Positions 16,980 through 48,865 of a stretch of 55,487 nucleotides of DNA are shown here, in pieces. The stretch's first letter is position 1; the number at the start of each line of letters is the position of its first letter. The notes under the pieces were generated by a model. It had not been told where the DNA came from and searched no databases. It saw only the letters and a list, made by a program, of their open reading frames with translations. Both the position numbers and the translations under genes were made by a program. Source of the DNA: a virus; the IMG/VR virus record IMGVR_UViG_3300042731_007552, positions 1-55,487 of that record, one strand, 5' to 3'.

Positions 16980-17460
16980 AATATTCACCTCTATTCATAT
17001 AAAAATATAAAATATCGTAATAATCACCTTTATAATATTTTCTTTCTGGTAAATACATATGATTATTAAAGTTATTAATCCAAAACTTTAATGCTGGATT
17101 GCATGTAAAACATTCTCCATATACAAGATTTAAATTTAATTCCAAGAATGCTTTATCTAATATTTTTTTTAGTATATCTTCTCCATATCCTTTTTTATTT
17201 TTATCTGTCAATATTCCTATTTCACAACATCTATTTTCTAATTCAATATTCGTTAATGCTGCCATACCTATCACACCAGAGTTTCTTATTACAGAAAAAT
17301 ATCTTGAATTAGATAATTTGTTGCACACAACTTTTTCATAAAATTCCAGTTGATTTTCTTTTGTCAAAGGAAATGACTCTCTTGTTGCATTATCATATTG
17401 TTTTCTTATTTCTAATATTTTTAATATATCTTTTTTGTTTAATGTGTCTAAAAATATCAT
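16939..17460 (-). CDS. GNAT N-acetyltransferase (PseH-like candidate 2)
   Basis: The protein has 173 aa, and its start overlaps the NeuB-like stop (ATGA). It is a clearer GNAT: SGVIGMAALTNIELENRCCEIGIL, the acetyl-CoA loop NKKGYGEDILKKIL, then FLELNLNLVYGECFTCN. In pseudaminic acid synthesis PseH acetylates the 4-amino group made by PseC. It is flanked by the synthase and the cytidylyltransferase, so this is the better PseH candidate. It overlaps the SpsF-like gene by 41 bases. Confidence 0.78.
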   Translation of the reverse strand: MIFLDTLNKKDILKILEIRKQYDNATRESFPLTKENQLEFYEKVVCNKLSNSRYFSVIRNSGVIGMAALTNIELENRCCEIGILTDKNKKGYGEDILKKILDKAFLELNLNLVYGECFTCNPALKFWINNFNNHMYLPERKYYKGDYYDILYFYMNRGEYYERMYNPSENDEQ

Positions 17461-18056: not shown

Positions 18057-18090
18057 GTTTACCACCTCCATATATATTTTATATTTATAA

Positions 18091-18119
18091 TTGACATTTT
18101 GCAACTTATGTATTAAAAT
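18091..18119 (+). promoter_or_regulatory. Promoter of the tRNA-like transcript
   Basis: TTGACA (18091), a 17-bp spacer and TAAAAT (18114) lie on the + strand. The segment CAACTTATGTATTAAAATA is shared with the cas12f promoter at 23305-23333. No ATACTTA operator is present. Confidence 0.75.
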
Positions 18120-18167
18120 AAAATTCACATGTGATTCATATATGAACAAAAAAATAATATCCGTATG

Positions 18168-18246
18168 AGTTATATAGCTTAATTTTGCGTTAAAGCCATA
18201 GCCTAGATTAGGGTGTGAGATATAGGTTCGAATCCTGTTGTAACTT
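18168..18246 (+). tRNA. tRNA-like gene with irregular D and anticodon loops
   Basis: A 7-bp acceptor stem (AGTTATA with TGTAACT, one G-U), a GCTT/AAGC D stem, and a T arm with ATAGG-TTCGAAT-CCTGT can be folded. The D loop (12 nt) lacks the usual GG. The anticodon arm pairs ATAGC with GGTGT through one G-G mismatch and leaves a 9-nt loop, CTAGATTAG, instead of 7. The amino acid identity is therefore unclear. A consensus promoter stands 49 bp upstream and a terminator 10 bp downstream, so the RNA is probably made. It may be a degenerate tRNA or a tRNA-like regulator. Confidence 0.5.
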
Positions 18247-18256
18247 ATACAAAATA

Positions 18257-18282
18257 AAACCACTACTAATATGTAGTGGTTT
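18257..18282. terminator. Bidirectional terminator
   Basis: The hairpin AAACCACTAC-TAATAT-GTAGTGGTTT has TTT on the + side and a T-rich run on the minus side. It ends both the tRNA-like transcript and the minus-strand operon finishing at 18297. Confidence 0.85.
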
Positions 18283-18296
18283 TATGGTTTGTAAAT

Positions 18297-18839
18297 TTAT
18301 ACCTTACTTGTACCTTGTACTCCACGCATTTTTCTGTCGTCTGTCCTTTTCCTAAGCCACATTAATGCCTCTTCTAACTTTGTAATAGCAACTGCATTTT
18401 CTCTACAACTAAACTTACTCTTTTGGAAATGTTCTAATCTGTCAATTACAATATTAATAAGATCCTCATGAAAGATACCATTTACTCCATGTTCTTTGAC
18501 TGGACCTTCTTGGAAGTGTATATGTCCAAGTATGATATCAGCGTCTATATTCATTCCTTTTATTGTGTAATTATGTGGAGCATTGAATTTTATTGTGTCT
18601 TTACCTATAAAAGTATGTTCTTGTGTGCCTTTTTCGACAGTTCCATCAACATCAACTTCATGATACGCTTCTTCAAAAGGTTTTTTAGGACTCCAAGATA
18701 CATATCCACCTTTATATTCAACCTTATAGCCTAGTTGATTTTCAACGCTTTTGTCCACTTTACCAAATTTTTCTTCTTGAAAATCATAAAGACTCATTTT
18801 TTCTGCTTTTACTGCTTTAGTTCCAATATAATATTTCAT
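18297..18839 (-). CDS. Tad1/Acb2-type signal-sponge-like phage protein
   Basis: The protein has 180 aa. The C-terminal half (HFQEGPVKEHGVNGIFHEDLINIVIDRLEHF, then FSCRENAVAITKLEEALMWL and KRTDDRKMRGVQGT) carries the conserved helical-hairpin signature of the Acb2/Tad1 domain. Acb2 sequesters cyclic nucleotides of CBASS, and Tad1 sequesters the gcADPR signal of Thoeris. The N-terminal 65 residues (YIGTKAVKAEKM, KVEYKGGYVSWSPKKPFEEAY) are a second common phage domain fused in front, and the middle is beta-rich. It overlaps the exonuclease start by one base. The ligand cannot be told from the sequence. An anti-defence role is inferred from the family. Confidence 0.75.
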   Translation of the reverse strand: MKYYIGTKAVKAEKMSLYDFQEEKFGKVDKSVENQLGYKVEYKGGYVSWSPKKPFEEAYHEVDVDGTVEKGTQEHTFIGKDTIKFNAPHNYTIKGMNIDADIILGHIHFQEGPVKEHGVNGIFHEDLINIVIDRLEHFQKSKFSCRENAVAITKLEEALMWLRKRTDDRKMRGVQGTSKV

Positions 18840-19426
18840 TATTTATACAACCCTTTCTTTTTATATTTATCTTCTAAATCATTCCATATTACCATTGTCA
18901 TTATTGCATCTTCTAATGCATTATGCAATTTTACTTTTACATTAGTTAACTTTTCATAGTATTCTTTTCTGCTAAAATCTGAATCTCCTAAAACTATATA
19001 TGCTAAGGTTGCAAGGTCTAAAGGTATATAATCTATATACTCGGGTACATTAAGTGCATTGTCCCATACATTGTCAACAGTGAATACCCAATCAAAATGC
19101 CCAACATCTGAAACAAACACAAGTTCATCATGTCCATCCATGTTTAAATCTTTCAACCAAGTTGAAAAAGTTTGTCTTAAATCATAAATATCTCCTTTGA
19201 CAAATGTTATATGATCATCTGTTTTGTGTGATTCTTTTATTTTAAAATTTTTAATTACATTTTCTTCAATCCATTTTGATATTAATTCTAATTTTCTTAA
19301 ATTGTCCAAGATTTCTTCATCTAGCTCAAAATAATATTGTTGATGGTCTTCTGTTATTGCTCCTAAGCTTAGTATTGAACATTTTTGATTTAATTCAGTA
19401 AATTCTAAATCAATAAATATTTTCAT
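18839..19426 (-). CDS. DEDDh 3'-5' exonuclease
   Basis: The protein has 195 aa. D6 and E8 in FIDLEFTE, an aspartate in SDVGHFDWVF and the HNALEDA motif near residue 168 make up the DEDDh active site. Overall it resembles RNase T and small phage 3'-5' exoribonucleases. It would trim RNA or single-stranded DNA ends. It is co-transcribed with the Tad1/Acb2-like gene (one-base overlap), the lipoprotein and SSB. Confidence 0.8.
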   Translation of the reverse strand: MKIFIDLEFTELNQKCSILSLGAITEDHQQYYFELDEEILDNLRKLELISKWIEENVIKNFKIKESHKTDDHITFVKGDIYDLRQTFSTWLKDLNMDGHDELVFVSDVGHFDWVFTVDNVWDNALNVPEYIDYIPLDLATLAYIVLGDSDFSRKEYYEKLTNVKVKLHNALEDAIMTMVIWNDLEDKYKKKGLYK

Positions 19427-19447
19427 TTATTTATAATCCTTTCTTTT

Positions 19448-19978
19448 TTAATAATTATCTGGTATGCTCCATTTTTCACATAATTTTTTATCTTTTTTTA
19501 CTGGAGACACAAATATTAATTGTTCATAATATTCAACTACAGGATCTCCACCTTTTTCTTTCGGAAGTCTTATGATCCAAGTTGCTGATGATGATGTTGG
19601 TATAAATAATCCGTTTGGTTCGGCTTGTGGTAATACTATACTGTCACTTGAAGATTTATAGACATATCTTTCAGGATTACTGTATTGTGTAGAGTATGGT
19701 ACACCATATCCCATGCATTCACCTTCATATATGTACTTCCCAGTATACTCATTTCTTGTATACAAATAACAAATTAAATCTGTTCTATCCTTTAATTCAT
19801 AAATGTATTTTAGATTCTTTTTCTCAGTATAATTTGATACATCTGGATCTCCAACTTGATTATCCATGTCTTTTTGTTTTTCCTCTTGTCTGTCAGCTAC
19901 TTTATCATCAATTGTTTTTTCACTACACCCTATAAAAGTGAAGCATATAACTGTTATAATCAACATTATTTTTTTCAT
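19448..19978 (-). CDS. Phage-encoded lipoprotein
   Basis: The protein has 176 aa. MKKIMLIITVICFTFIGC is a lipoprotein signal with lipobox FIGC (Cys18). The mature part contains the conserved YIYELKDRTDLICYLY, ECMGYGVPYSTQYSNPE and NGLFIPTSSSATWI blocks shared by a family of phage lipoproteins. The role is not established. Surface-exposed phage lipoproteins often block superinfection or receptor entry, which is a plausible but unproven role here. The neighbour at 19980 is a small membrane protein that commonly travels with it. Confidence 0.75.
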   Translation of the reverse strand: MKKIMLIITVICFTFIGCSEKTIDDKVADRQEEKQKDMDNQVGDPDVSNYTEKKNLKYIYELKDRTDLICYLYTRNEYTGKYIYEGECMGYGVPYSTQYSNPERYVYKSSSDSIVLPQAEPNGLFIPTSSSATWIIRLPKEKGGDPVVEYYEQLIFVSPVKKDKKLCEKWSIPDNY

Positions 19979-19979
19979 A

Positions 19980-20318
19980 TTAATAACCTCTCATTCTTTC
20001 TAAAAATGACCTTAAATTTGAACTTTGTAATTTGTTAATATCAAAGTTCGCAAACTCATTTATTATCCTTTGTTTTATCGAATTTTTGCCTGTTTGTGTA
20101 TCATTTTGTTCATACTCATTTTTGTATCTTGCCAAATCATTTACTTTACCTCTTATGTAACTTTCGTTATTTTCAAAAATTTCTCTTTCAATATTTGCAT
20201 CTTTTACACCAAAATATCCTTTGTAATATAATTCAACAAAAGACAATCCGACAAATATTGTTAACACTGCTATTATCCATATTATTGTTTTAAAATATGC
20301 TTCTATAAAATTTTTCAT
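19980..20318 (-). CDS. Small membrane protein
   Basis: The protein has 112 aa. One N-terminal membrane helix (IIWIIAVLTIFVGLSFVELYY) is followed by a charged helical domain ending in FANFDINKLQSSNLRSFLERMRGY. It precedes the lipoprotein gene by one base and may form an envelope pair with it. The cytoplasmic or extracellular side cannot be determined reliably. Confidence 0.65.
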   Translation of the reverse strand: MKNFIEAYFKTIIWIIAVLTIFVGLSFVELYYKGYFGVKDANIEREIFENNESYIRGKVNDLARYKNEYEQNDTQTGKNSIKQRIINEFANFDINKLQSSNLRSFLERMRGY

Positions 20319-20338
20319 TTTTTTATTCTCCTTTCATA

Positions 20339-20716
20339 TTAAAATGGCAATTCATCTTCTGATTCTAACGGATAATAATCTTCACTATTATCATTATTAT
20401 TATTAGTTTTAGGTTTAGTATTAACAAAGTGTAATTCTTCAACCCATACATCCCATGTATATTTTGTTGTTCCTGCATTATCAACATAACTTCCTGTCTT
20501 GACAGTTCCAACTAATGCTATTTTATCTCCTTTGCTAAGATATTTATGTGCAACCTCGGCCGTTTTATTCCAAAGTACGATTCTAATAAAATTACTTTTA
20601 TCTTTATCGAATCTTTCTTTTACTGCTATAGTATTTTTTGTGTATACTTTGTCATTTTTGGTGTGCTTTAATTCAAAATCAAAGCATAGATTACCAATTA
20701 GCATTACTTTATTCAT
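20339..20716 (-). CDS. ssb: Single-stranded DNA-binding protein
   Basis: The protein has 125 aa from ATG 20716; an upstream frame to 20791 overlaps the zinc-ribbon gene and is rejected. It has the OB-fold of SSB: MNKVMLIGNLCFDFELKHT, NFIRIVLWNKTAEVAHKYLSKGDKIALVGTVKTGSY, then a flexible tail ending in the acidic DELPF tip that recruits partner proteins. It supports replication and RecT/Bet annealing. The start is coupled to the zinc-ribbon stop (TAAGATG). Confidence 0.93.
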   Translation of the reverse strand: MNKVMLIGNLCFDFELKHTKNDKVYTKNTIAVKERFDKDKSNFIRIVLWNKTAEVAHKYLSKGDKIALVGTVKTGSYVDNAGTTKYTWDVWVEELHFVNTKPKTNNNNDNSEDYYPLESEDELPF

Positions 20717-20717
20717 C

Positions 20718-20813
20718 TTAATAACCTCCACATGGATATCCACAATCTGGGCATATACCAGCATTGTCTTGGTAATCAAACTCACATCCACAATTCAAAC
20801 ATCTAACCTTCAT
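20718..20813 (-). CDS. 31-aa zinc-ribbon miniprotein
   Basis: ATG 20813 to TAA 20718 encodes MKVRCLNCGCEFDYQ followed by ICPDCGYPCGGY. It is a rubredoxin-like double CxxC knuckle with two extra cysteines. It follows a good AAGAGGC site, overlaps the aminotransferase end by 11 bases and is translationally coupled to ssb. It may be a DNA- or protein-binding adaptor for SSB (inference). Confidence 0.7.
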   Translation of the reverse strand: MKVRCLNCGCEFDYQDNAGICPDCGYPCGGY

Positions 20814-21747
20814 AAAAATCAGCCTCTTTTCTTAAAAAATTAATAATTCTGTATATATCATATTGAGTTAGTTTTATATGCAATGGAATAGAGAGAATCT
20901 TTTCTTTAATTGAATCTAAATACTTAGAACTTCTTGGATTATCTTTATATTTATAAAAATCATAAACTGGCTTATAATGCACTTGAAATTGTATTCCTAT
21001 TTCTTTTCCTTTTTTAATTATATGTTCTCTATTATTAACTTTTATTACATACAAATGATTTGTTTCTTTACCTAATTTATATTTTTCAAAATATAGGTCA
21101 TAATTATTAGATACTCTTTTTCTTATACCTAAAAAATCTTCTAATCTACTTAATTGAGTAATACCAAGTTGTGCTTGGAAATCTGTCATTCGGTAATTAT
21201 GCCCAAGACCATGATTTCTGAATGATCTTATTTTTTTTGCATGTTCAACATTATCTGTAAGGCATGCACCACCTTCACCTGTAGTAATATGCTTTACAGC
21301 ATGAAAGCTAAAACATGTTATTTCTGAGTATTCATTAAATTTCATGGAATGTGCTGCATCCGAAACTAACATATTTTTGTGATTACAAATTTGGCCAGCA
21401 TAATCAACACCTACTGAAACGCAATTTGGTTTTTTCATTATTCCATTTTTATCAACATCTTCAAATACTGGAATCCCACCAGCATTTTTGATTGCATTTG
21501 CTGTTGCTATAAATGTAAGTCCTGGTACTGATATATATTTATTTTTTATGTCAAAACAACTTAATGCACAATGTAATGCAGCCGTCCCAGAATTTACGAC
21601 AATTGCATGCTTTACATTAAATTTTTTCTTTAATGCCTCTTCGAATTCTTCAATTTTTGGTCCTGTTGTTATAAACTGCGATTTTAGGACTTTGTTCATT
21701 TCTTTTATTTCCCATTCTGCAATGTTTGGAGAATTATAATAAATCAT
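20803..21747 (-). CDS. pseC: PseC-like PLP aminotransferase (DegT/DnrJ/EryC1)
   Basis: The protein has 314 aa. The PLP lysine is K152 in FHAVKHITTGEGG; SGTAALHC, DAAHSMKF and NYRMTDFQAQLG complete the DegT/DnrJ/EryC1 pattern. It lies directly downstream of, and overlaps by 14 bases, a PseB-like dehydratase. This is the classical pair making the 4-amino sugar in pseudaminic acid synthesis. It is about 60 residues shorter than typical PseC, mainly in the middle and C-terminal regions. Confidence 0.85.
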   Translation of the reverse strand: MIYYNSPNIAEWEIKEMNKVLKSQFITTGPKIEEFEEALKKKFNVKHAIVVNSGTAALHCALSCFDIKNKYISVPGLTFIATANAIKNAGGIPVFEDVDKNGIMKKPNCVSVGVDYAGQICNHKNMLVSDAAHSMKFNEYSEITCFSFHAVKHITTGEGGACLTDNVEHAKKIRSFRNHGLGHNYRMTDFQAQLGITQLSRLEDFLGIRKRVSNNYDLYFEKYKLGKETNHLYVIKVNNREHIIKKGKEIGIQFQVHYKPVYDFYKYKDNPRSSKYLDSIKEKILSIPLHIKLTQYDIYRIINFLRKEADFYEG

Positions 21748-22657
21748 TTACATCAATCTCCCATTCTTTATTGTCACTGGAATAATCACCAATGAACTTG
21801 CTATTTTCTGTTTCTTTATGATTAAAAAATATGTATCTTGGTCTAATAATGTAATGAGCAACTTTTTCAATTACTTTTTCATGTTTAGAAACAAGAGTCT
21901 CATGTATCTTTTCGCCTTCTCTTATTCCAATTATTTTATGATCCTTGCTAAATTTATTAGCTAGGTCGAGTATTTTTAGTGTCGGCAATTTAGGTATGAA
22001 TATTTCACATCCATACATAGTTGTTAAACACATATTTACAAATTGGCTGGCTTCATGTTTTCTTATAATAAATCTAGTCATATCTGGATGTGTTATTGGA
22101 AGAGGTAATCCTTTTACTGCAAATTGTTTAAATACATCAACAACGCTTCCGTTGCTGTTAAAAACATTACCATATCTTGCTATACTTATTTTTGTATTTC
22201 TTTTGCCATCATATGCATTCCCACACAAAAATATTTTTTCCATGCACATTTTTGTAGATCCATATAAATTAGTTGGCTGTACTGCTTTGTCTGTAGATAT
22301 TCCAATTAATTTTTTAACTCCTTGATCAATTGCAGCTTCTACAACATTTCTAGATCCATTAATGTTTGTTTGCACAGCTTCAAATGGATTATATTCGCAT
22401 GATGGTACTTGTTTTTGTGCAGCTGCATGTATTACCCAATCAATTCCTTTAAAAGCTCTTTGAAGCCTGTCCTTGTCTCTTACATCTCCAATTAAAAAAG
22501 AAATTTTCTTGTTTTCGTCGAATTTTTCTTTCATCTGTGATTGCTTTAATTCATTTCTAGATAGAATATAAATTTTTTCTATTCTTTTAACATTTAGATA
22601 ATATTCTGTTAGAGCATGACCTAATGTTCCTGTTCCACCTGTTATTAGTAGTTTCAA
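21734..22657 (-). CDS. pseB: PseB-like UDP-GlcNAc 4,6-dehydratase
   Basis: The protein has 307 aa from a TTG at 22657 after GGAGGAAAAGGA. It is an extended SDR with GGTGTLG (NADP loop), LIGDVRDKDRL, AAAQKQVPSCEYNP, the T122-D123-K124 triad of STDKAVQPTNLYGSTK plus Y132 and K136. These are diagnostic of inverting PseB/FlaA1-type dehydratases. It starts the pathway to pseudaminic acid by converting UDP-GlcNAc to a 4-keto-6-deoxy sugar. A TTG start and a four-base overlap with the upstream small gene suggest coupled, tuned translation. Confidence 0.9.
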   Translation of the reverse strand: MKLLITGGTGTLGHALTEYYLNVKRIEKIYILSRNELKQSQMKEKFDENKKISFLIGDVRDKDRLQRAFKGIDWVIHAAAQKQVPSCEYNPFEAVQTNINGSRNVVEAAIDQGVKKLIGISTDKAVQPTNLYGSTKMCMEKIFLCGNAYDGKRNTKISIARYGNVFNSNGSVVDVFKQFAVKGLPLPITHPDMTRFIIRKHEASQFVNMCLTTMYGCEIFIPKLPTLKILDLANKFSKDHKIIGIREGEKIHETLVSKHEKVIEKVAHYIIRPRYIFFNHKETENSKFIGDYSSDNKEWEIDVNDLL

Positions 22658-23333: not shown

Positions 23334-23363
23334 AGTAAATAAATATTTAAGGAGATGATTTAT

Positions 23364-24635
23364 TTGGCAAGTCAAAATTGCAAGATTCAAGTGTATCTTG
23401 ATGATAAAAATATGTATAAAAATATACATGATTTAATGTTCGAGACTAGACATATATTAAATAAAACGATATGTGCAATGTATGAGTGGGATGATTTTAA
23501 GTTTGATTACAAAGAAAAGAATGAAGTATATCCAAAACCTAAGGATATATTGTATAAGAAAAATAATATAGATACATATAAAAGTTTGGCTGGATATATC
23601 GATTATAATTTAAGAAGTAAATTTTATAAAAATATAAGCAATAATTCGTCAAGTGCGATCCAAAATGCCATTAAATTATATAAAACTAAAGTAAAGGATA
23701 TGCAAAGAGGATTATGTACATTACCACATTACAGTAAATTCGATAAAATAATTTTGCATAATAGAAGTGTTAGAATACGCAAAGAAGATGATAAATATTT
23801 TTTTGATATTTCATTATTTTCAACAAAGTTTAAAAAAGAATTAGAATTAAAAAGTGGAATTGTTTTATTTAATGCAGTTGTGAAAGATAATTATCTTAAG
23901 TGTATTGTAGATAGATTATTATCTGGAGAATATAAAATAAATGAAAGCAAATTAACATATGACAAAAAGAAAAAGAAATTTTATATAATACTTGGATATG
24001 GATTTGAAAAAGCTGAAAATATTGAAAGAACAAACATAATGGGGATAAATTTAAGAGTAATTGATTATGCTGTATATGCTGCAATACATAATAGTAAGAT
24101 AAGATTCAAAATACATGGTGGTGAAATAGAAGCATTTAGAAATCAGATAGAAAAAAGAAGACTTTCTTTAAGAAAGCAACGTATAACTTGTAATAATAAT
24201 AAACGTGGCAGGAATAGGATGTTAAGACCAGTTGTTAAAATAGGAAATATAATATCAAATTTTAAAAATCTAATAAATCATAATTATAGTAAAACAATAA
24301 TTGGATTTGCAATAAAAAATGATGTTAAAGAAATAAGAATGGAAGATTTAAGCGGAATATCAATAAAAAATAATTTTCTTAAAAATTGGAGTTATTACGA
24401 TTTACAACAAAAAATAAAATATAAAGCTGAAAATAATAATATAAAATTTACATTAATTAATCCTAAAAATACAACAATATCATGCAACAAATGTGGATAT
24501 GTCGATAAAAAAAATAGGAATAATAGAAAAAACTTTATATGTACAAAATGTGGATACCATGTTATACTTGATTATAATGCAGCTTTAAATATAGCAAATA
24601 AGGATTTTCGGGCTGATTCGGCAGCCTTAAGGTGA
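23364..24635 (+). CDS. cas12f: Cas12f-like (type V-F) effector with altered RuvC-I
   Basis: The protein has 423 aa from a TTG at 23364, nine bases after AAGGAG; the ATG at 23355 touches that site. Colinear similarity to AsCas12f1, recalled from memory, runs almost end to end: ETRHILNK, EWDDFKFDYKEKNEVYPKPKDIL, LLSGEYKINESKLTYD, GGEIEAFRNQIEKRRLSLRKQ and NWSYYDLQQKIKYKAE. The zinc ribbon is C374/C377 and C393/C396. RuvC-II E327 (RMEDLSG) and RuvC-III D403 (LDYNAALNIA) are kept. The RuvC-I aspartate is Asn229 (IMGINLRVIDYA), which should abolish or strongly reduce cleavage. A tracrRNA-like segment and a repeat-spacer-repeat array follow directly. An RNA-guided binding function, such as repression, is inferred. 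Confidence 0.9.
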   Translation: MASQNCKIQVYLDDKNMYKNIHDLMFETRHILNKTICAMYEWDDFKFDYKEKNEVYPKPKDILYKKNNIDTYKSLAGYIDYNLRSKFYKNISNNSSSAIQNAIKLYKTKVKDMQRGLCTLPHYSKFDKIILHNRSVRIRKEDDKYFFDISLFSTKFKKELELKSGIVLFNAVVKDNYLKCIVDRLLSGEYKINESKLTYDKKKKKFYIILGYGFEKAENIERTNIMGINLRVIDYAVYAAIHNSKIRFKIHGGEIEAFRNQIEKRRLSLRKQRITCNNNKRGRNRMLRPVVKIGNIISNFKNLINHNYSKTIIGFAIKNDVKEIRMEDLSGISIKNNFLKNWSYYDLQQKIKYKAENNNIKFTLINPKNTTISCNKCGYVDKKNRNNRKNFICTKCGYHVILDYNAALNIANKDFRADSAALR

Positions 24636-25304: not shown

Positions 25305-28300
25305 TTATTTTACCATTACCCTGTTTAAAATACAACAAGCTTCTAATTTATTTAAATTATCCATTCCTTTAAATTTCTTGAATTTTCTTTTTATCAATTT
25401 TAGTTGTTTTTCAGTTGCTGGAGCTTGCCCCCATCTTTTTATGCTGCTAAGATTCCATAAAGCTTTTTCATTCATATGATTCTTTTGCAGATATAGAAAC
25501 AACCAATCAATTGCTTTTTGCATTTTTACTTTGGTTCCATGTTTAGTTCTAGTATATCCAAGCTCGTCAGGTGCAGGTATTTCAAATGTTTGACTTGGTA
25601 TACTCAATCTCATTGATCCATTTGGCATTTTGAAAAAGTTTATATCATGTGTATTATATTCCATTTCTTTTGCCCATAAATCAACGATTTTAACATTTTT
25701 AATCCAGCACTCTGGTGTATCAGAAGCTGCAATAATTTTGTTTTCTAAATCAAATAAATCTCCTTCAATTTCATTTTCTTTGTCTTGATCCACGTTTTGC
25801 ATATCCAAACCAATTAAACTTGGAGCCGTACACATATTCAAGTTGGACACTCCAACACAATCTAATAATAATAATTTTTCTTTTCCAGGTGATAGTCTTA
25901 AACCTCTTCCTATCATTTGACATTGACCCATTATAGTTACCTTCCCATTTCTTCTTGTTATTATTGTTCCAATATCGTTTTCTATACACCAACAATTTTC
26001 ATTTTTATAATTTTCTATTTCAAATTTTGGTCGTTTATCATAATGACTACTTAAATGTTTTATCTCTTGTTTTTTTATATGTATTGTATATACTTCTGTT
26101 CCATAATTACTTTTAAATGTCCTAACATTTGCCTTATATCCTCTTGTTATACAAGCAATTTGCAATTTTTCAATAAATTCTTTTTTACCTTTAGTTATAT
26201 CTATGCTTCTTTTAACCCAATTTTTAGGAATATATTTATTACCGTCAGCTTTGTTGCAAGTTTTTAAAAATATTTCGAATTGCCTGTTGCTCATATCCCA
26301 TAATTTATCTGTATAAAAATATTTGCTAAGATATTCCCAGCCTCTAAGATTTTTATCTCTTCCTCTAGGTTTTCCTTTTGAAATTGTAAATATATAGTGT
26401 TCTCTATATTTTGAAAAATTAGTCGAATCTTTTTTTAAAATTTTATTATATTTCATACCACATTCATTTATACATTCTTCTATTTCATTAACAAAATTTA
26501 TATTTTTTTTAGATTGGGTTATGTTAATAGCATTGTTATGTTTATTTATATTTCCATCTGTCATAGTCCATGCTATAAATTTTATTTCATGGTCATACAA
26601 ATTTATACCATTATAATTATAATATCCTGATACGGGTACGAAAAAACCATCTTTCATTTTTGTTAAATTTTCAGCCTTAGTTATTCTTAATTCTTTTTTA
26701 CGCCTGGTACAATATATCATTCTATGTTTATTGGTAACTCTTATATCAATATAATTAGATTTAATACCAACATAATTTTCGCCAATATTTATTTTACGGT
26801 TTATGTATCCTTTTATATTTTTATATTTTATTTCTTTTGTTTTTATATCAAATGTTGCTGTTTTGTCGTTTTCTATATTTATTGTTTTATGATTTTTCCA
26901 TCCGTTGTCGGTTAATATTTCGGTATCATAATCAATACAATATAATGATTTATTTTTAGTAGGTCGTGCCATTATAATTGTCTCTATCAAAGGAATATTA
27001 GTTCCTTCTGTAAATATCATACAATTTACAATTACTGGAATTTCTCTATTTGTAAATTTATCAATTATGTCTTGCCTGTTTTTTGTTTCGGCGCTTATTA
27101 CTACAGCACCATCTATTTTTTCAGCAATGTTTTCAGCATGATCCACAGTTGTTGCAAATATTAAAGTTTGTCCACGAGCATATTTTTCATAAGCTTCTTT
27201 AATCTGTTCATTTGCTTCTTCAATATTTACTTTTTTGTCTAATGATTCAAGCGTGAAGTCTTTGCTATGCTGCCTTATGCCTCTAAGATCATATTTGATA
27301 TTGACTCTTTTGCATTCAATACCAGATAGATATTTATTTTGTATACCCCATTTCAAATCCTTTTCAAATATGATATCATCGAATATATCAGATAAACCAA
27401 CCTTATCATTTCTGTTTGGAGTAGCTGTAAATCCTAACAATAATCTAGGATTAAAATACTCAATGATTTTTTTGTATGTTTTAGCACTACTATGATGGCA
27501 ATTATGTACAAGTATTTTATCTACAAAATAATTATTATTATCTTTTACTTCGATATTATAGACATAACTATTTGGACACAATCCTCCAAATTTTCCGTCA
27601 CTTGTTCGTTTTTGAATCTTAATATTTTCCACCCTAATCCATTCAAAAACAACTCTTTCTTTTTGTCTTGCTTTTGTCTTTCTAAAGCACAATGACTGTT
27701 TCCATCTATTTCTATTGCTATCATTTTTGTTGGTATTGCTATGTCTATTTTGTAGCAAGTTGGATATCCATTTCCTCTTTTTATTTTCGTTGGTATTGGA
27801 TATTCTGAATATGGATAAAAATCTTTTAAAGCAATTAACATTTTTTGTTGTGTAACTGTTAGACCTGTTCCATTTCCACATCTTATTTTTGGGCAATGTC
27901 CTATTTCTTTTAATCTCTTTGATACTTTTTCTCTTACTTCTTTTCTTGACATTGGATTGTTTTGTTTCATTCTTTCTGATGCATATTTTTTGTTTGTTTT
28001 TACCATAAAGTAACTTGATTTTTTTCCTAAACATTCTTTTGAGCAATATACATATTTGTGTCTTTTTTTTAATTTTTTTATAACATTTTTCCCACATATA
28101 ATACACTTCATCATTATTATTTAATTTTGCAGCTTGTTTATATCCTTCTTTTGTATAAAAAGGATGTCCACCAGTGCAAATTATCTCCTTTCCATTTGAT
28201 AATTTTACAACAACTATATTTTTTGGTTTTGATTTGAAAGTATTTATTACTTCTTTTTTTTCTATGGTATTCGTCTTATGATTGTATGATGTTATTATAT

Positions 28301-29726
28301 CACCACACTTGATTTTTTCAATAGGAACATTGTCAATCAATGTACCTTTTGGAAAACATTCATCAACTACAATAATTTCAAAATCGTCATTTTTGAAATT
28401 GTCAAGTCGATTTACCAAACTCTGTACACTTGCAGATATGACACGTTCTCCGTTACTTGTTTCTTTACCAAGTTCGATGCCATAGCTGCAAGTGAAATAT
28501 TTTTTTGGCTGATATACTAATTCTTGTCTATGACTTAATATTAGCATTCTTCCTTCTATGTGATTAATTAATTGTGAAAATATAACAGTATTATGAACAA
28601 CTGTAAAATCGTACAACAAAAACATTCTGTCATTGCCTTCTATTTCGAAACCATAATAATTATCAATGTCTTTTTTTATTACTTTTATTCCAGTCATAAG
28701 ATTTTTTTTATTAGGTTTGTTAATAGCCTGTTTCCTTTTTATTTTTGTTGGAATTTCTTTTGTTAAACCTGAAATATTTAATCTATAATAATTTTTATTA
28801 TATTTTTTAACATATTTTAACAACTCACTACACGAAAATCCAAGACTTCTTGCTATGAACGCAACATCACATGCAATATGCTTATATTTTGTAGTAAATT
28901 CAAATGTTGTATTGTCCTTATGTAAATATCCATCACTATCAAGTAAACCTGCGAGTAATTCGAGTCTTACTTTTCGTGAATTTATTTTATAATTTTTTGG
29001 AATATGTTTGTTATTGAATAAATTTTCTTTGAAATATTTTCTTAATATTATTCTTTTATAATTAGATGTTAAATGATACATTTTTGATTTATTATTTTTT
29101 TGATTTTCAATTCTAATATTAAGATTATTCTTTTCAGAAAAATAATTTAAATAATTTACAATTTCAATATCAGGAGTACATATTGACAAACTTTTGTTAT
29201 TTCCATCTCCTAACCACAGTCCTAAAAAATATGGTTCTATTTTTGGTTCATTGTGTTCCCAATCTATTTTTGAAGAAAATCCTTTCATAACATGCTTAAA
29301 TGTTTTACTGCACTTTATATAATCATTAACTTTTATATTGCATATATCATTATTTGTGTATTTTTTTCCATTAATGTCATATACATATTTTTTAGTATTA
29401 TTCCCAATTCCTGTACATTTTAGGCTAAGTATGTGACTTTCATTTACTGTATATGATTTTTTTTTGTTTTGTTTCACTTCATACATTTGTTCTTTGCCTC
29501 TTGCTAATGATATAACTTTTCTAGGTTTATTGTCCCAACCCATTAATATATCATTAACTTTTATATCTTGGACTTTTTTTATTGTCCCATCATACATTAA
29601 TATTTCTGTATCTTTACAAAAACATTTACCCAATCCAGTTGCTAGTTGTACAAGATAGTTACCTGGATGTTGTTTTAAAATTGTATCAATGCATTCTTGT
29701 TGATATGGTCTGAGTTTAATGTTCAT
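25305..29726 (-). CDS. DEAD/DEAH helicase with three inteins
   Basis: The precursor has 1473 aa; removing three inteins leaves 503 aa. The exteins form a superfamily 2 helicase: motif I ATGLGK|T, Ia LILSHRQELV, II VVDE|CHHS, III GFTATPNR, IV TLIFATTVDHAEN, V TEGTNIPLIETIIMARP and VI |CQMIGRGLR. Inteins occupy residues 35-379, 457-742 and 930-1268, each splitting a catalytic motif, so an unspliced protein should be inactive. The mature enzyme resembles phage UvsW/XPB-like helicases acting in replication or recombination. Its start overlaps the KilA-N gene by 11 bases. The RecU-like gene follows. Confidence 0.92.
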   Translation of the reverse strand: MNIKLRPYQQECIDTILKQHPGNYLVQLATGLGKCFCKDTEILMYDGTIKKVQDIKVNDILMGWDNKPRKVISLARGKEQMYEVKQNKKKSYTVNESHILSLKCTGIGNNTKKYVYDINGKKYTNNDICNIKVNDYIKCSKTFKHVMKGFSSKIDWEHNEPKIEPYFLGLWLGDGNNKSLSICTPDIEIVNYLNYFSEKNNLNIRIENQKNNKSKMYHLTSNYKRIILRKYFKENLFNNKHIPKNYKINSRKVRLELLAGLLDSDGYLHKDNTTFEFTTKYKHIACDVAFIARSLGFSCSELLKYVKKYNKNYYRLNISGLTKEIPTKIKRKQAINKPNKKNLMTGIKVIKKDIDNYYGFEIEGNDRMFLLYDFTVVHNTVIFSQLINHIEGRMLILSHRQELVYQPKKYFTCSYGIELGKETSNGERVISASVQSLVNRLDNFKNDDFEIIVVDECFPKGTLIDNVPIEKIKCGDIITSYNHKTNTIEKKEVINTFKSKPKNIVVVKLSNGKEIICTGGHPFYTKEGYKQAAKLNNNDEVYYMWEKCYKKIKKKTQICILLKRMFRKKIKLLYGKNKQKICIRKNETKQSNVKKRSKRKSIKEIKRNRTLPKNKMWKWNRSNSYTTKNVNCFKRFLSIFRISNTNENKKRKWISNLLQNRHSNTNKNDSNRNRWKQSLCFRKTKARQKERVVFEWIRVENIKIQKRTSDGKFGGLCPNSYVYNIEVKDNNNYFVDKILVHNCHHSSAKTYKKIIEYFNPRLLLGFTATPNRNDKVGLSDIFDDIIFEKDLKWGIQNKYLSGIECKRVNIKYDLRGIRQHSKDFTLESLDKKVNIEEANEQIKEAYEKYARGQTLIFATTVDHAENIAEKIDGAVVISAETKNRQDIIDKFTNREIPVIVNCMIFTEGTNIPLIETIIMARPTKNKSLYCIDYDTEILTDNGWKNHKTINIENDKTATFDIKTKEIKYKNIKGYINRKINIGENYVGIKSNYIDIRVTNKHRMIYCTRRKKELRITKAENLTKMKDGFFVPVSGYYNYNGINLYDHEIKFIAWTMTDGNINKHNNAINITQSKKNINFVNEIEECINECGMKYNKILKKDSTNFSKYREHYIFTISKGKPRGRDKNLRGWEYLSKYFYTDKLWDMSNRQFEIFLKTCNKADGNKYIPKNWVKRSIDITKGKKEFIEKLQIACITRGYKANVRTFKSNYGTEVYTIHIKKQEIKHLSSHYDKRPKFEIENYKNENCWCIENDIGTIITRRNGKVTIMGQCQMIGRGLRLSPGKEKLLLLDCVGVSNLNMCTAPSLIGLDMQNVDQDKENEIEGDLFDLENKIIAASDTPECWIKNVKIVDLWAKEMEYNTHDINFFKMPNGSMRLSIPSQTFEIPAPDELGYTRTKHGTKVKMQKAIDWLFLYLQKNHMNEKALWNLSSIKRWGQAPATEKQLKLIKRKFKKFKGMDNLNKLEACCILNRVMVK
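25923..26939 (-). mobile_element. Intein 3 in helicase motif VI (339 aa)
   Basis: It starts at Cys930 (CIDYDTEILTDNGW, block A), has a TNKHRM block B, a central endonuclease-like region with FIAWTMTDGNINK and FLKTCNKADGN (LAGLIDADG-like halves), and ends NGKVTIMGQ followed by Cys1269. The last residue is Gln instead of Asn. Gln-ended inteins are known but rare, and they splice through the same chemistry with glutamine cyclisation. Confidence 0.85.
27501..28358 (-). mobile_element. Intein 2 in helicase motif II (286 aa), with nested gene
   Basis: It begins at Cys457 (CFPKGTLIDNVPIEKIKCGD), has GGHPFYT as block B, and ends YVYNIEVKDNNNYFVDKILVHN before Cys743. Between the splicing blocks the frame reads as low-complexity Lys, Arg, Asn and Ser. 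This is because the DNA there encodes a homing endonuclease in the +1 frame (27545-28114). The splicing frame nevertheless has no stop over 190 codons. Confidence 0.88.
27545..28114 (-). CDS. Vsr-like homing endonuclease nested out of frame in intein 2
   Basis: The protein has 189 aa in the +1 frame relative to the intein, from ATG 28114 (or 28111) with no clear ribosome site. C4, C7, C24 and C28 form a zinc knuckle. NPMSRKEVREKVSKRLKE resembles a NUMOD3 DNA-binding helix. YKIDIAIP, IAIEIDGNSH and LGWKILRFKNEQV form the Vsr/DUF559-like nuclease with D124, E135, D137 and H141, matching the EDxHD homing endonuclease family found with phage split inteins. The protein sequence is coherent while the overlapping intein linker is not, so this frame carries the endonuclease. 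Its end overlaps intein block F. Confidence 0.85.
   Translation of the reverse strand: MMKCIICGKNVIKKLKKRHKYVYCSKECLGKKSSYFMVKTNKKYASERMKQNNPMSRKEVREKVSKRLKEIGHCPKIRCGNGTGLTVTQQKMLIALKDFYPYSEYPIPTKIKRGNGYPTCYKIDIAIPTKMIAIEIDGNSHCALERQKQDKKKELFLNGLGWKILRFKNEQVTENLEDCVQIVMSIISK
28590..29624 (-). mobile_element. Intein 1 in helicase motif I (345 aa)
   Basis: It starts at Cys35 (CFCKDTEILMYDGTIKKVQD) inside the Walker A loop, has NESHILSL as block B, LAGLIDADG-type motifs FLGLWLGDG and LLAGLLDSDG, and ends YDFTVVHN before Thr380. It is a full bifunctional intein with an in-frame DOD endonuclease, probably still mobile. Confidence 0.92.
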
Positions 29727-33720: not shown

Positions 33721-33807
33721 CATTTAAATGCTCTAGATTGGACTAAACTTTTTAATGTATAATTCTATGAAAATTTTAGTTTATGTAAACCTCGTTGATA
33801 TTTTAGG
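33721..33807 (+). repeat. Inverted element, copy A
   Basis: This about 85-bp block aligns with the reverse complement of 37885-37969. Shared segments in order are CATTTAAAT, GACTAAA, GTATAAT, GAAAATTTTAGTTTA and AACCTCG. The two copies face each other and bracket the repair and DUF927 gene block (33811-37374). No coding capacity was seen. It may be a protein-binding, promoter or recombination site. Confidence 0.7.
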
Positions 33808-35534: not shown

Positions 35535-37211
35535 TTATATTTCTTTAAATAATTTGTTTTTTATAAACATTGGATATCTGGATTTACCACCATCATATTT
35601 TTTAGCCGGTATTGATCCGGTTTTGTCTAGCTTTAAATATCCTTTTTGTTTGGCTTCTTTTATAAAAACTTTATATGAAAAACCTTCTTTCTCCATTTCT
35701 TTTTCAAGTGTATTTTTAATAAACACTATTTCAAGTTCTCGTTCATATCCAATTTTCTCATTTCCAAAAAAACTTTCTCCAATCTTGTCAATTTTTTGGA
35801 TGTTCATTGAATAATAATCTTTAATGAAATTCATAGCTTTATTAAATTCGTTTATTTCGGATGTTTTAACGAGATATTTTATTATTTTACATCCAAAGTC
35901 TTGCGATAAAAGAAAAGCTTTTGCTTCATCTATTTTTTTTTCTTCAGTCAAAAATAGATAATTTATATAGCATAAATATGCCAATTGAGATATATTATCT
36001 CCAAGATTTTCTTTATTATCAAAAGCTTCTCTGAATTCATTTATTATATTATTTGCATATTTTACATTTATATTTTTTATTATTTCAATCCATTTAAAGC
36101 CAAACATTCCATAATTTTCAGTAAAAAAAGAATAGCACTTTCTTCCATCATTTATATCCATCATTTTCCCTTCAAGTTCTATGCATCTTTTTATTATGCC
36201 TCCTTGTTTCGCTGTTGGACTTATAAGAGGTTTTTCGCCATTTGATAAAAATGTTGTATTCCAAGTTTTTAGTTTGGTATTTGTTCCTTTTAATGTTCCT
36301 CTTACTTTACCTTTACCTTCAAATGCCGTATATATTAATGTGCTTGTGTCTATGTAAGGACTTAAGTTTTGTGAATCATCTAGAAATAGAGGAATATTAC
36401 CATGTGTTGCTGATAAAAATTCAAAACCTGTATATGTAAGATTGAATCCTTTTACTAATTTTGTTGGATCTCCATATATGCTTGCAAAAGCATACATCGA
36501 TGCTGTTTTACAACTTGAATATTTTCCATAATTGTGAAGAAATATACTTGGTTTTTTAAGTTTTGATAATAATGGTCCCCCAAGTGCAGTTAAAAAACCA
36601 GTCTCAAACAAAATATTTTTATTAAATTTTTCAATTTTATCAGACCATGCATTGTAGTCTCCTTTGGATTGAAATGTATTTTTATATTCATTTAATCCAT
36701 TTTCATCTGAGTAATATGGTTTAATGTCATATGGACAAAACTTATCGCCAATCCATCCAAATTGCTCTGTGCATACTATTGTTTTTAATTTTTTGTAATT
36801 TGTCATATGATTTAGTATTTTCATATATTCAATTACATCTTTCATTTCTCCATCAAACCAATATTCTGGACCAAATGAGTCAATAAAAAATTCTCTTGTA
36901 TTTTTTGCCGTTGATATATTTTCACCTTTTATTAATACATTTTTTTCTGTTCCATATTCGTTTACTTCTATTCTTTTAACACCATCAATGCTTAATATTC
37001 GATTTGGTATCAAAACGAGTGGGGTTATTTTTATGTCCCATATTAACATTTGTTTGTTGTCTATAACCCTTTTTATTAATCCTTTTTCTGTAATATATGT
37101 ATTAGGAGAATAATCATCTGGTAGCAAAGTTGACTTTAATTCAAAATTAGCAAAATCAAAGTTTTCATTGTTTCTGGAATTATTCACAACATCAAATAGT
37201 GTTTTTGCCAT
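35535..37211 (-). CDS. DUF927-family replication helicase-like protein
   Basis: The protein has 558 aa from ATG 37211, eight bases after AAGGAG; an ATG at 37217 is too close to that site. The N-terminal half is a beta-rich domain (EQFGWIGDKFCPYDIKPYY). The C-terminal half has the DUF927 ATPase pattern: LHNYGKYSSCKTASMYAFASIYGDP, IPLFLDDSQNLSP, VRGTLKG and WNTTFLSNGEKPL. The P-loop reads GKYSSCKT, with Cys where GK-T loops usually have Gly. Such proteins accompany plasmid and phage primases. It sits beside the iteron region and is likely the replication initiator or helicase. Confidence 0.8.
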   Translation of the reverse strand: MAKTLFDVVNNSRNNENFDFANFELKSTLLPDDYSPNTYITEKGLIKRVIDNKQMLIWDIKITPLVLIPNRILSIDGVKRIEVNEYGTEKNVLIKGENISTAKNTREFFIDSFGPEYWFDGEMKDVIEYMKILNHMTNYKKLKTIVCTEQFGWIGDKFCPYDIKPYYSDENGLNEYKNTFQSKGDYNAWSDKIEKFNKNILFETGFLTALGGPLLSKLKKPSIFLHNYGKYSSCKTASMYAFASIYGDPTKLVKGFNLTYTGFEFLSATHGNIPLFLDDSQNLSPYIDTSTLIYTAFEGKGKVRGTLKGTNTKLKTWNTTFLSNGEKPLISPTAKQGGIIKRCIELEGKMMDINDGRKCYSFFTENYGMFGFKWIEIIKNINVKYANNIINEFREAFDNKENLGDNISQLAYLCYINYLFLTEEKKIDEAKAFLLSQDFGCKIIKYLVKTSEINEFNKAMNFIKDYYSMNIQKIDKIGESFFGNEKIGYERELEIVFIKNTLEKEMEKEGFSYKVFIKEAKQKGYLKLDKTGSIPAKKYDGGKSRYPMFIKNKLFKEI

Positions 37212-37374
37212 GCTCATTCTCCTTTTGGTATAACGTGTTTATTGCTATATCTAGAATTCTGCTTTTTCTTTCATTATATTTTTCTGCTAGTTCATTTAAT
37301 TTTTTAATTGAATCTTTATACAATGTATATGATCTTAATATTCTTTCGTCTGTCTTATGCAATGTTAATTTCAT
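37192..37374 (-). CDS. Small helix-rich DNA-binding-like protein
   Basis: The protein has 60 aa from ATG 37374 after GGAGGGAAAACA. MKLTLHKTDERILRSYTLYKDSIKKLNELAEKYNERKSRILDIAINTLYQK shows a strand followed by two helices, with KSRILDIAINTLY as in ribbon-helix-helix proteins. It is the first gene downstream of the origin-like arrays and overlaps the DUF927 gene. It may bind the iteron arrays or autoregulate (inference). Confidence 0.65.
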   Translation of the reverse strand: MKLTLHKTDERILRSYTLYKDSIKKLNELAEKYNERKSRILDIAINTLYQKENEHGKNTI

Positions 37375-37440
37375 TGTTTTCCCTCCTTATATATAAATTT
37401 TATAATTAAAATTATATAACAACTTTTAATTATAATCAAC

Positions 37441-37850
37441 AAGGAACAAAAAAATATTTTTGTACCCCGTTTTGTACCCCGTTTTGTTCCCCCTTTTGTT
37501 CCCCGTCAAAGTCACTGTTTATCTTATTTTATTATTTTTAGGAACAAAAATTATTATATATATATATATTATATAGAGATTTTTGATTTCAAATTATTTA
37601 CAATTTTATTTTTTTAATATTATACTATTATATATATACCCTTGGATTTTTTTGTTCTTTTGTTCCCTTTTAGTTCTAAACCTGCATGAATACTTGATTG
37701 TATAGGGGTACAAAAAAAAATAATTTTGTTCCCTATTTTTGTTCATTTTAGCTTAAAACTATGATTAATACTTATATTCATCCCAAAATGTAACTTTGAT
37801 TATTTTTGTTCTCTATTTTTGTTCCCCTTTTCAATTAAAGAAAAACATAT
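37441..37850. repeat. Iteron-like array 1 (GTTCC type), candidate origin
   Basis: About 7 GTTCC/GGAAC boxes and several GTACC boxes occur, mostly in the form TTTTGTTCCCC, arranged around TATATATA tracts and the segment AAACCTGCATGAATACTTG. No gene is visible. Its layout is colinear with array 2 at 37983-38350 but with a different box base. Confidence 0.75.
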
Positions 37851-37884
37851 CTACTTAATATGAGTTTAAATCAATTTTAAGGTA

Positions 37885-37969
37885 TCTAACATCGTCGAGG
37901 TTGACCTAAACTAAAATTTTCGCATGATTATACCTAATTATTTTTTAGTCAAGGAAATCGATTTAAATG
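37885..37969 (-). repeat. Inverted element, copy B
   Basis: This is the minus-strand counterpart of 33721-33807, sharing CATTTAAAT, GACTAAA, GTATAAT, GAAAATTTTAGTTTA and AACCTCG in the same order. It separates the two iteron-like arrays. Confidence 0.7.
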
Positions 37970-37982
37970 GCTTAATTTTATA

Positions 37983-38350
37983 ATAGAGTAACAAAAATAT
38001 TTCTTGTACCCTAAATGTTACTGGAATGTTACTCTTTTTGTTACCCCTTTAAAACCAGTAACAAAGCCGTTTCTTATATATATATATTAAAGTAACAATA
38101 ATTATTATATATATATACTAGGAGTTTTTGTTACAAATTTTATTTTTCTATTATATATATACTGTTTAAAAAATCTTGTTACTTTTGTTACCTTTCCTTT
38201 GAAACTAGCATGAACACTTGTGTGTAGCAGTAACAAACGTATTTTTTTGTTGTTACTAATTTTGTTACTGTCTTATAAAAGTAGCTTAAACACTACATTT
38301 TAAAAAAATATAAATGTTACCCTATTTTTGTTACTCTAAAATGTTACCTT
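37983..38350. repeat. Iteron-like array 2 (GTTAC type), candidate origin
   Basis: About 15 GTTAC/GTAAC boxes, often TTTTGTTAC, take the places occupied by GTTCC in array 1. The surrounding skeleton (TATATATA tracts, AAACTAGCATGAACACTTG, AGCTTAAACACTAC) parallels array 1. Together with 37441-37850 it forms the largest non-coding region of the genome, next to the DUF927 gene. Confidence 0.75.
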
Positions 38351-38413
38351 GCTTGAAGTATTATTGAAGTCACAAACAAGGTATAATATAATAGAATCAT
38401 ATAAATTAATATA

Positions 38414-38445
38414 ATGCCCTGTTACTAGTCGAAATAACAGGGCAT
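38414..38445. terminator. Terminator-like hairpin
   Basis: ATGCCCTGTTA and TAACAGGGCAT form an 11-bp perfect stem with AAAAAA on the + side. It closes the origin-like region from the operon to its right. Confidence 0.75.
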
Positions 38446-44812: not shown

Positions 44813-44959
44813 TGTTAGTACTAACATGTTTTTGTTTGTACAAACGTTAGTACTAACAAATGTTAGTACTAACATGTTAGAACTGGAACACTGATAAACA
44901 CTGTATTGTTAGTACAAACGTTAGTACTAACAGTGCTAACATTCTTGTTAGTACTAACA
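44813..44959. repeat. Array of TGTTAGTACTAACA palindromes
   Basis: Exact 14-bp copies lie at 44813, 44861 and 44946; variants with one or two changes lie at 44833, 44845, 44907 and 44919, and half-sites at 44875 and 44933. Adjacent palindromes abut at several places. The stretch between the stop at 44981 and the promoter at 44781 is otherwise empty. It is a likely multi-dimer protein-binding array: regulatory, centromere-like or packaging. Confidence 0.85.
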
Positions 44960-47594: not shown

Positions 47595-47729
47595 ATGAAA
47601 AGGTTTCAAATTTATTTAACTGAAAGACAACATAAAATAATATCAAAAATAGCTAACGAAAAAGGTATATCATTTGCTGAATTTATCAGACGTATTTTAG
47701 ATGATAAGATTGAGCAGGTAAAAAAATGA
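47595..47729 (+). CDS. Small ribbon-helix-helix protein coupled to tnpB
   Basis: The protein has 44 aa from ATG 47595 to TGA 47727, which overlaps the tnpB ATG. MKRFQIYLTERQHKIISKIANEKGISFAEFIRRILDDKIEQ is a typical RHH fold: one strand and two helices. It may repress the element or regulate its RNA. Similar small RHH genes precede tnpB in some IS605-type elements (recalled, not checked). Confidence 0.75.
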   Translation: MKRFQIYLTERQHKIISKIANEKGISFAEFIRRILDDKIEQVKK

Positions 47730-48865
47730 TTAAATCCATTAAAATTAGACTAGAGCCTAATAATAAGCAAGATACTAAACTATTTAAATTTGCTAGTACT
47801 GCTAGATTTATTTACAACTGGACATTGGATAGACAACAAAAGAATTATAAAGTTGGTAATAAGTTTATATCTGATTGTGAGCTAAGAAAAGAATTGACAC
47901 AACTTAAAAAGACAGATGAGTTTAAATGGTTAAATGAAGTATCTTGTGATGTACCTAAACAAACAGTCAAAGATGCTTGCAATACTTATAAAAGATTTTT
48001 TAAAGGATTATGTGGATATCCTAAATTTAAATCAAGAAAGAAGTCAATACCTAGTTTTTATCAAGATAATTTTAAAATTAAAATTATTGAATCTTCTATT
48101 TATTTATCAAAGATAGGTAAAATGAGATTATCTGAATCAAATAAATTGCCTATTGGTAATAGTATTAAGAAAGAAATATCAGTATCAAATCCAAGAATAA
48201 CGCACGATGGATTACACTGGTATATATCTTTAGGCATAGAAACAGAAATAAAAGAAAATAATTACGATAATACTATAGGCATTGATTTAGGTATTAAAGA
48301 TACTGCTATATTATCAGATGGTATAGTTATAAAAAATATCAATAAATCTAATAAAATAAAAAATATACAAAAAAGAAAGCTTAAATTACAACATAAGATA
48401 TCTAAAAAATATGAAATGAATAAGAAAGGAGTATGTTACGTTAAAACATCTAACATACAGAAGTTAGAGAAAAAAGTTAAAAAACTTAGTACAAAAATAG
48501 TTAATATCCGAAAAGACTTTATACATAAAGCAACTACCAAGATAACGAAAACCAAGATATCTAAAATAGTTGTTGAAGACTTAAATATTTCTGGAATGTT
48601 AAAGAATCATAAGTTAGCTAAATCTATACAAGAACAGTCATTATATGAATTCAAAAGACAGTTAACTTATAAATGTAAACTTAACAGTATAGAATTAATA
48701 GAAGCTGATAGATGGTTTCCAAGTTCTAAAATATGCTCTAAATGTGGATATAAAAAGGATAAGTTGAGTTTATCAGAAAGAATATTTAAGTGTGAATATT
48801 GTGGGTATGAAATCGATAGAGATTTAAATGCAGCTAGCAATTTAAAAAATTATATAGTATCTTGA
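47726..48865 (+). CDS. tnpB: TnpB (IS605-type RNA-guided nuclease)
   Basis: The protein has 379 aa. The catalytic residues are intact: D187 (GIDLGIKDTA), E284 (IVVEDLN) and D366 (DRDLNAASNL), with zinc cysteines 337/340 and 356/359. No tnpA was found. It lies between the portal-region minus gene and the minor capsid gene, separating two structural genes. The region 48866-49020 probably includes its guide-RNA region and right end. Compare with the Cas12f-like gene at 23364, which lacks the first aspartate. Confidence 0.92.
   Translation: MIKSIKIRLEPNNKQDTKLFKFASTARFIYNWTLDRQQKNYKVGNKFISDCELRKELTQLKKTDEFKWLNEVSCDVPKQTVKDACNTYKRFFKGLCGYPKFKSRKKSIPSFYQDNFKIKIIESSIYLSKIGKMRLSESNKLPIGNSIKKEISVSNPRITHDGLHWYISLGIETEIKENNYDNTIGIDLGIKDTAILSDGIVIKNINKSNKIKNIQKRKLKLQHKISKKYEMNKKGVCYVKTSNIQKLEKKVKKLSTKIVNIRKDFIHKATTKITKTKISKIVVEDLNISGMLKNHKLAKSIQEQSLYEFKRQLTYKCKLNSIELIEADRWFPSSKICSKCGYKKDKLSLSERIFKCEYCGYEIDRDLNAASNLKNYIVS

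Follow-up and report, generated by a model that had tools for sequence, protein, structure and literature searches.

A candidate tandem pair of PICI/SaPI-type replication origins with different box letters in a phage with one detectable DUF927 helicase

How initiator–origin pairs change specificity without loss of replication is an open question, since an initiator and its numerous boxes have to change in concert. The locus described here raises this question within a single phage. The window, by which we mean the whole 55,487-bp stretch analysed, is the IMG/VR virus record IMGVR_UViG_3300042731_007552, from a virus of bacteria. It holds two arrays of short boxes whose letters differ between the arrays (Table 1). 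A sequence-only reading had proposed two non-coding blocks with the same order of elements. This is borne out by the ORF listing of the window, which has no ORF of at least 50 aa within 37397-38424, by alignment of the blocks and by the elements that they share.

Table 1. Features of the two box blocks and of the neighbouring rep gene (positions in the window)
Feature	Position	Strand	Description
Rep, DUF927 (MCM-like) helicase with C-terminal HTH_56 winged helix	35535..37217	-	Pfam and structure matches
HTH_56 domain, residues 460-544	35586..35840	-	Presumed box reader; winged helix in the model
Codons of wing residues Ala538-Lys539-Lys540	35598..35606	-	Across the family, 538 tracks box position 4 and 540 box position 1
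60-aa ORF upstream of rep	37192..37374	-	Ribbon-helix-helix-like by eye only
Promoter-like site TTGATT-17-TATAAT	37411..37439	-	Between block 1 and the small ORF/rep; a consensus match only, such sites being no commoner than in shuffles
Block 1	37443..37832	+	Origin-like array by box counts, site table and paralogy to block 2; 14 boxes TTTTGT(T/A)C(C/T), 3 inverted, in two groups around an AT-rich core
AT-rich core, block 1	37546..37650	.	89.5% A+T; presumed melting region
GCATGAATACTTG element	37684..37696	+	Right box group, block 1
46-bp element	37888..37933	+	Between the blocks; a second copy with 80% identity, at 33757-33802 (-), precedes a small gene
Block 2	37988..38348	+	Origin-like array, predicted cognate origin of the window's own Rep; 16 boxes TTGTTAC(T/C), of which 15 match GTTAC exactly and 4 are inverted; an AT-rich core separates two box groups
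AT-rich core, block 2	38064..38172	.	85.3% A+T
GCATGAACACTTG element	38208..38220	+	Right box group, block 2
Terminator-like hairpin	38414..38445	-	Right of block 2

Counted as words, block 1 contains seven GTTCC (five on the plus strand, two on the minus), three GTACC, three GTTCT and a single GTTAC at 37790; the table of its 14 sites comprises seven GTTCC, three GTACC, three GTTCT and one GTTCA. The boxes of block 2 are GTTAC (11 plus, 4 minus) apart from one GTACC, and a word count found zero copies of GTTCC or GTTCT there. Elsewhere in the window the richest 420-bp stretch holds three copies of either word (GTTCC or GTTAC). These numbers agree with the earlier claims that GTTCC is missing from block 2, that GTTAC is nearly missing from block 1 and that block 2 has about 15 GTTAC. 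For block 1, described as about seven GTTCC boxes with GTACC variants, the count of seven held and the consensus proved wider once all sites were included. Position 4 of the box is C in 14/14 block 1 sites when the site at 37741 is put in register. At position 5, where the family box has an invariant C, block 1 boxes at times have T or A, and the block 1 register could therefore be shifted.

The two blocks are paralogous and colinear. Local alignment of one with the other, a check that the sequence-only reading had called for, gave a score of 85.5 against a mean of 22.2 for 500 dinucleotide shuffles (sd 3.5, maximum 39), and the same alignment against the rest of the window reached at most 36. 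With the boxes masked the score was still 56, compared to 25.5 (sd 3.7). As read from the alignments, approximately 12 boxes occupy homologous positions; about 11 of these have, in block 1, either C for the A of GTTAC or a deletion of this letter. GCATGAAYACTTG is present in both blocks, at 37684 and 38208, with the same order of elements, and AGCTTAAA recurs at 37750 and 38283. The box letters are kept within each block while the spacers between boxes have diverged across blocks, a pattern that points to selection by a protein reading the boxes and speaks against gene conversion. Selection or concerted evolution for two specificities had been suggested from the letters; selection is supported, with box letters tracking the helicase wing as set out below, and concerted evolution by gene conversion is unlikely as the source of the switch, given that conversion would homogenise the blocks and not differentiate them.

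The gene next to the small ORF beside block 1 encodes the presumed reader. That a DUF927 gene lies beside the blocks was confirmed by Pfam (DUF927, 7.9e-26; HTH_56, 2e-8, above the cut-off). Sequence searches with this protein, Rep, matched 8tch and 5dgk, and a structure model built with 28 relatives (pLDDT 77) returned SaPIbov1 Rep (8tch; 7.3e-22) and then SCCmec Cch (5dgk; 8.9e-20) in Foldseek, well ahead of other structures. By homology, Rep clearly belongs to the SaPIbov1/Cch-type helicases; its helicase activity is uncertain. The Walker A motif reads GKYSSCKT and so departs from an intact GxxxxGK[ST], with Cys236 standing where 136/136 relatives have Gly; Lys237, Thr238 and Asp280 are retained. 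Rep may be impaired by Cys236, or the base may be a sequencing error. An impaired Rep would make help in trans more relevant.

Only one DUF927/HTH_56 protein was detected in the record by hmmsearch of all six frames and by family searches. Profile searches of the window for a second initiator found no VapE and no D5_N; the AAA_25 profile matched only weakly, below cut-off, within the terminase gene. Since the record begins and ends inside genes for tail and head, what it lacks is likely structural. The small neighbour of rep had been called DNA-binding-like, a description that found no support: the 60-aa protein has no Pfam match and no support in the PDB, and a ribbon-helix-helix fold was rejected, its single-sequence model being a lone helix. 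No Rfam match was found in 30-45 kb.

This origin type is already known. PICI origins always have two iteron sets around an AT-rich region (PMC6092414), and short iterons in two sets with an AT-rich middle are found in both blocks. The C-terminal domain of SaPI Rep recognises a short-iteron origin directly downstream of its gene, the DUF927 protein Cch is related to SaPIbov1 Rep, and Cch2, from another helicase family, binds short iterons beside its gene through its C-terminal domain (PMC7581432). The window resembles the SaPIbov1/PICI replicon in combining a DUF927 MCM-like Rep and its C-terminal DNA-binding domain with two iteron groups around an AT-rich core. It differs in being a phage and not a satellite, since it has structural genes for capsid and tail, among them those for terminase, portal, major head, scaffold and tape measure; in having two putative origins with different boxes, and in the Gly to Cys change of Walker A. 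Placement differs as well: in PICIs and SaPIs the origin lies directly 3′ of rep, whereas both blocks are found upstream of rep and its small neighbouring ORF. Judged from these features, the blocks would work like a PICI/SaPI-type origin in a different position. SCCmec Cch (5dgk) is likewise a structural relative of Rep, but a two-specificity origin is absent from the account of Cch and Cch2 in PMC7581432.

To place the blocks within their family we turned to loci encoding related helicases. Four named phages have the helicase with an adjoining box array: THSA-485A of Thermoanaerobacterium (GGTTACC), a Ruminococcus gnavus phage (GTTAC), Roseburia phage Jekyll (GTTACC) and FP_Epona of Faecalibacterium (GTTTCACCT). 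Jekyll, FP_Epona and THSA-485A are phages with a DnaG-type primase and an MCM-like helicase; they share the helicase family and the adjoining array with the window, but each has one array with one box type, downstream of the helicase. Patterns from the helicase alignment yielded approximately 145 further loci, 136 with a full downstream flank. A box array lies just 3′ of the helicase in 122/136, compared to 16/136 for the upstream control, and a stricter array score gave 96 downstream against 0 upstream. The arrays have a median of 9 copies, span 288 bp and start a median of about 12 bp past the helicase stop; in 114/116 the largest box-free gap between box groups is AT-richer than the locus. 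Among the 14 loci that lack an array close by, four show ACACCT repeats some 2 kb farther along.

As a rule these relatives have a single iteron type per origin region, and the window departs from this with two types in two blocks. Among the 122 arrays L230 alone clearly combines two different box sets. In this origin (L230:5530-5940), 13 ACACCT boxes (CTGAACACCTAA-like) are interleaved with 6 that resemble TAGTCAC, and the same record has a weak second HTH_56 match, below cut-off, at 912-1151 of the contig. The sequence-only reading had proposed a search for relatives with one block or with other boxes; the survey gave the conserved single arrays and L230, and close relatives of the phage were not found by megablast (phages, plasmids), by helicase and portal patterns (IMG/VR) or by the helicase (GTDB genomes). 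One further search for helicase relatives added two distant loci. TTTTGCA-type words are repeated in or near the arrays of Faecalibacterium-phage-like origins (L126, L194, L221, L253, L269) and are a possible second conserved element.

A scan of IMG/VR for TTGTTAC arrays gave many arrays, at loci without the DUF927 helicase in the sequence examined. GTTAC arrays adjoin replication proteins of other families (VapE-like, AAA_25, Toprim) at L093, L110, L019, L096 and L047, and the initiator can therefore not be told from the GTTAC boxes by themselves. CCCGAA/TTCGGG arrays lie about 0.2-1.5 kb from GTTAC arrays at several IMG/VR loci (L044, L051, L066, L071, L017).

We derived a recognition code from the aligned boxes and HTH columns of 79 related phages. 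The family consensus is [G/C]TTAC.CCTAA, with C at position 5 in 79/79. Box similarity tracks HTH similarity with the helicase core removed (partial r 0.30, 0/500 permutations) and shows no association with the helicase core once the HTH is removed (-0.11). Of all HTH columns, column 45 is tied most strongly to box position 1 (z 23): W occurs there with C in 14/14 and K, R, S or M with G in 53/53. For position 4 it is column 43 (z 8.5), where K pairs with C (4/4), M with T (4/4) and N with G (1/1); L126, with Met, reads GTTTC. Where position 4 is A, in 64 loci, this column holds L, Q, S, V, R, T, P, F, A or I and never K, M or N. Six further loci (Q, V, S or R) are exceptions to the pairing of column 43 with position 4. 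Letters changed 10 times at position 1 and 13 times at position 4 on the helicase-core tree. There, position 1 and column 45 changed together in 5.4/6 supported independent pairs on average, and position 4 and column 43 in 3/7 supported pairs; the opposite direction was never seen in independent pairs at either position. Both columns fall on the wing strand, residues 538-541 of the Rep model. Together these data suggest that two wing residues set the box letters at positions 1 and 4.

The two blocks differ at position 4 and both have G at position 1. In Rep, column 43 is Ala538 and column 45 is Lys540; from these the code predicts A at position 4 and G at position 1 (GTTAC), and hence block 2. 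L191, alone among the relatives in having Ala in column 43, has a box that reads GTTACA, and the position-4 letter of block 1 is the one paired with Lys in column 43 (L177, L210, L252). Most likely, therefore, the resident Rep has its cognate origin in block 2, and block 1 is tuned to a different Rep. The alignment of the wing at Ala538 is somewhat ambiguous. A profile built without the window put Lys539 in column 43 in place of Ala538, at low posterior, and only 33 of the 58 pairwise alignments that cover the site favoured Ala538. With Lys539 in column 43 block 1 would be predicted, but that register puts Tyr in column 45, at odds with the G of both blocks. We favour the Ala538 register because of the motif [KR][KR][FY]DG..SR[FY], which L146 also has, and because of its position-1 prediction.

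On balance, we consider that the region is probably a tandem pair of PICI/SaPI-type origins, block 2 being cognate to the phage's own Rep and block 1 having the specificity of another Rep. We infer the following course of binding and firing. The iteron boxes of each block form two groups with an AT-rich core between them. Rep, as an MCM-like, self-loading helicase, would bind these boxes through its C-terminal winged helix, with two wing-strand residues reading the box letters, then melt the core and start replication. The phage's own Rep (Ala538, Lys540) would use block 2 (GTTAC) as its cognate origin. Block 1 (GTTCC) may be kept as a second origin for a Rep variant acting in trans, from another phage, a prophage or a satellite, or may serve the phage's own Rep after a one-residue change in the wing. 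Counting against this model, besides the ambiguous wing alignment, the possible register shift in block 1, Cys236 and the failure to find close relatives that could show persistence of the pair, are that the position-4 covariation depends on only 3 concordant supported pairs, and that the blocks lie upstream of rep where relatives have the array downstream. The sequence-only reading had left a choice between a double origin and a partition site. The double origin is best supported, through the conserved array by the helicase and the wing-tracking letters. A ParABS site found no support, the only ParB_N domain detected being fused to a DNA methyltransferase, with no ParA and no free ParB among the proteins scanned. 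GC skew, also proposed as a check, has its minimum near 41 kb, close to the blocks; it coincides with a switch of gene strand and so says little about the origin, and was set aside as a locator.

It is also conceivable that one Rep reads both box types, the blocks forming a joint double origin or one origin with a regulatory or handcuffing array. We regard this as unlikely, though it merits attention: a single Rep is detectable in the record, the two boxes have TTTGT and a C in common, and the conservation of the block 1 boxes, with their uniform position 4, implies that something reads them. Phage P4 is a precedent in having two replicons, ori1 and crr, both sites with the same repeat; it has two cis sites for one initiator, as would apply here, but that initiator is of another family. 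RctB, at the origin of Vibrio cholerae chromosome 2, is another, with one initiator and two kinds of site; its 12-mers promote and its 39-mers inhibit replication (PMC5395669). The RctB sites, however, differ in kind and role, whereas the arrays of the window are paralogous and each resembles a complete origin. Relaxed reading would moreover be unusual, given that the arrays of the 79 other phages have essentially one position-4 letter each, tracking the wing residue, and neither block is a bare box array, both having full origin anatomy. Alternatively, one block may be a relic, an old, unused origin left by past recombination or a specificity switch. Box letters do change often in the family, at both positions, and L230 also has a second, smaller box set. 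Yet both blocks have kept their box letters despite divergence of the spacers, which is unexpected of a decaying site unless the event was recent, and a recent duplication should have left the spacers more alike; we think a relic improbable.

The remaining alternatives appear weaker still. The GTTCC array might be bound by another phage protein, such as the 60-aa protein, as an operator array or partition site. The small ORF and the promoter-like site do adjoin block 1, but the paralogy and colinearity with block 2 extend to the AT-rich core and the GCATGAA element, the 60-aa protein lacks a DNA-binding match, and free ParB and ParA are absent among the proteins scanned, making such a reader very improbable. 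Least credible is a chimera in which metagenome assembly joined two related phages at their origins. This is a single IMG/VR record with no close relative to confirm the join, and a repeated element lies in the spacer between the blocks; however, the blocks are too unlike for assembler confusion, the spacer repeat is only 80% identical, and L230 is an independent two-set origin.

Several other features of the window were recorded. In the non-coding gap upstream of the portal gene, 44813-44959 holds about 8 imperfect copies of the palindrome GTTAGTACTAAC (11 TGTTAG/CTAACA words); this array has no AT-rich core and its structure is unlike that of blocks 1 and 2. A 1473-aa helicase (ResIII/Helicase_C) at 25305-29726 has apparently two intein-like insertions (Hint/Hom_end and Intein_splicing/LAGLIDADG matches). 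The sugar-nucleotide gene cluster at 13425-22657, with cytidylyltransferases, NeuB, a DegT aminotransferase, Polysacc_synt_2, a GNAT acetyltransferase and a capsule synthesis-like gene, looks like one for nonulosonic acid synthesis. A 180-aa protein at 18297-18839 matches the Acb2/Tad1 hairpin domain (3.5e-6) and is a possible counter-defence protein, and two genes, at 23355-24635 and 47726-48865, match the phage transposase family phrog_506.

In the literature searched, whose scope left out most subscription papers, the primary SaPI origin papers included, we found no description of a two-specificity tandem or of a wing-to-box code. A broader proposal, which we advance tentatively as possible and would not yet call probable, is that the phage keeps a second complete origin with the specificity of another initiator, through which a Rep from some other phage or satellite, or a variant of its own Rep with one wing residue changed, could replicate it; that a family-wide, two-residue code between wing and box sets origin identity; and that duplicated origins are a stepping stone for a specificity switch. 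With two apparently complete origins that differ at one box position, and wing residues that predict the letters, a switch in specificity becomes directly testable. The code would also allow one to foresee, among phages and satellites with this type of replicon, which can use one another's origins.
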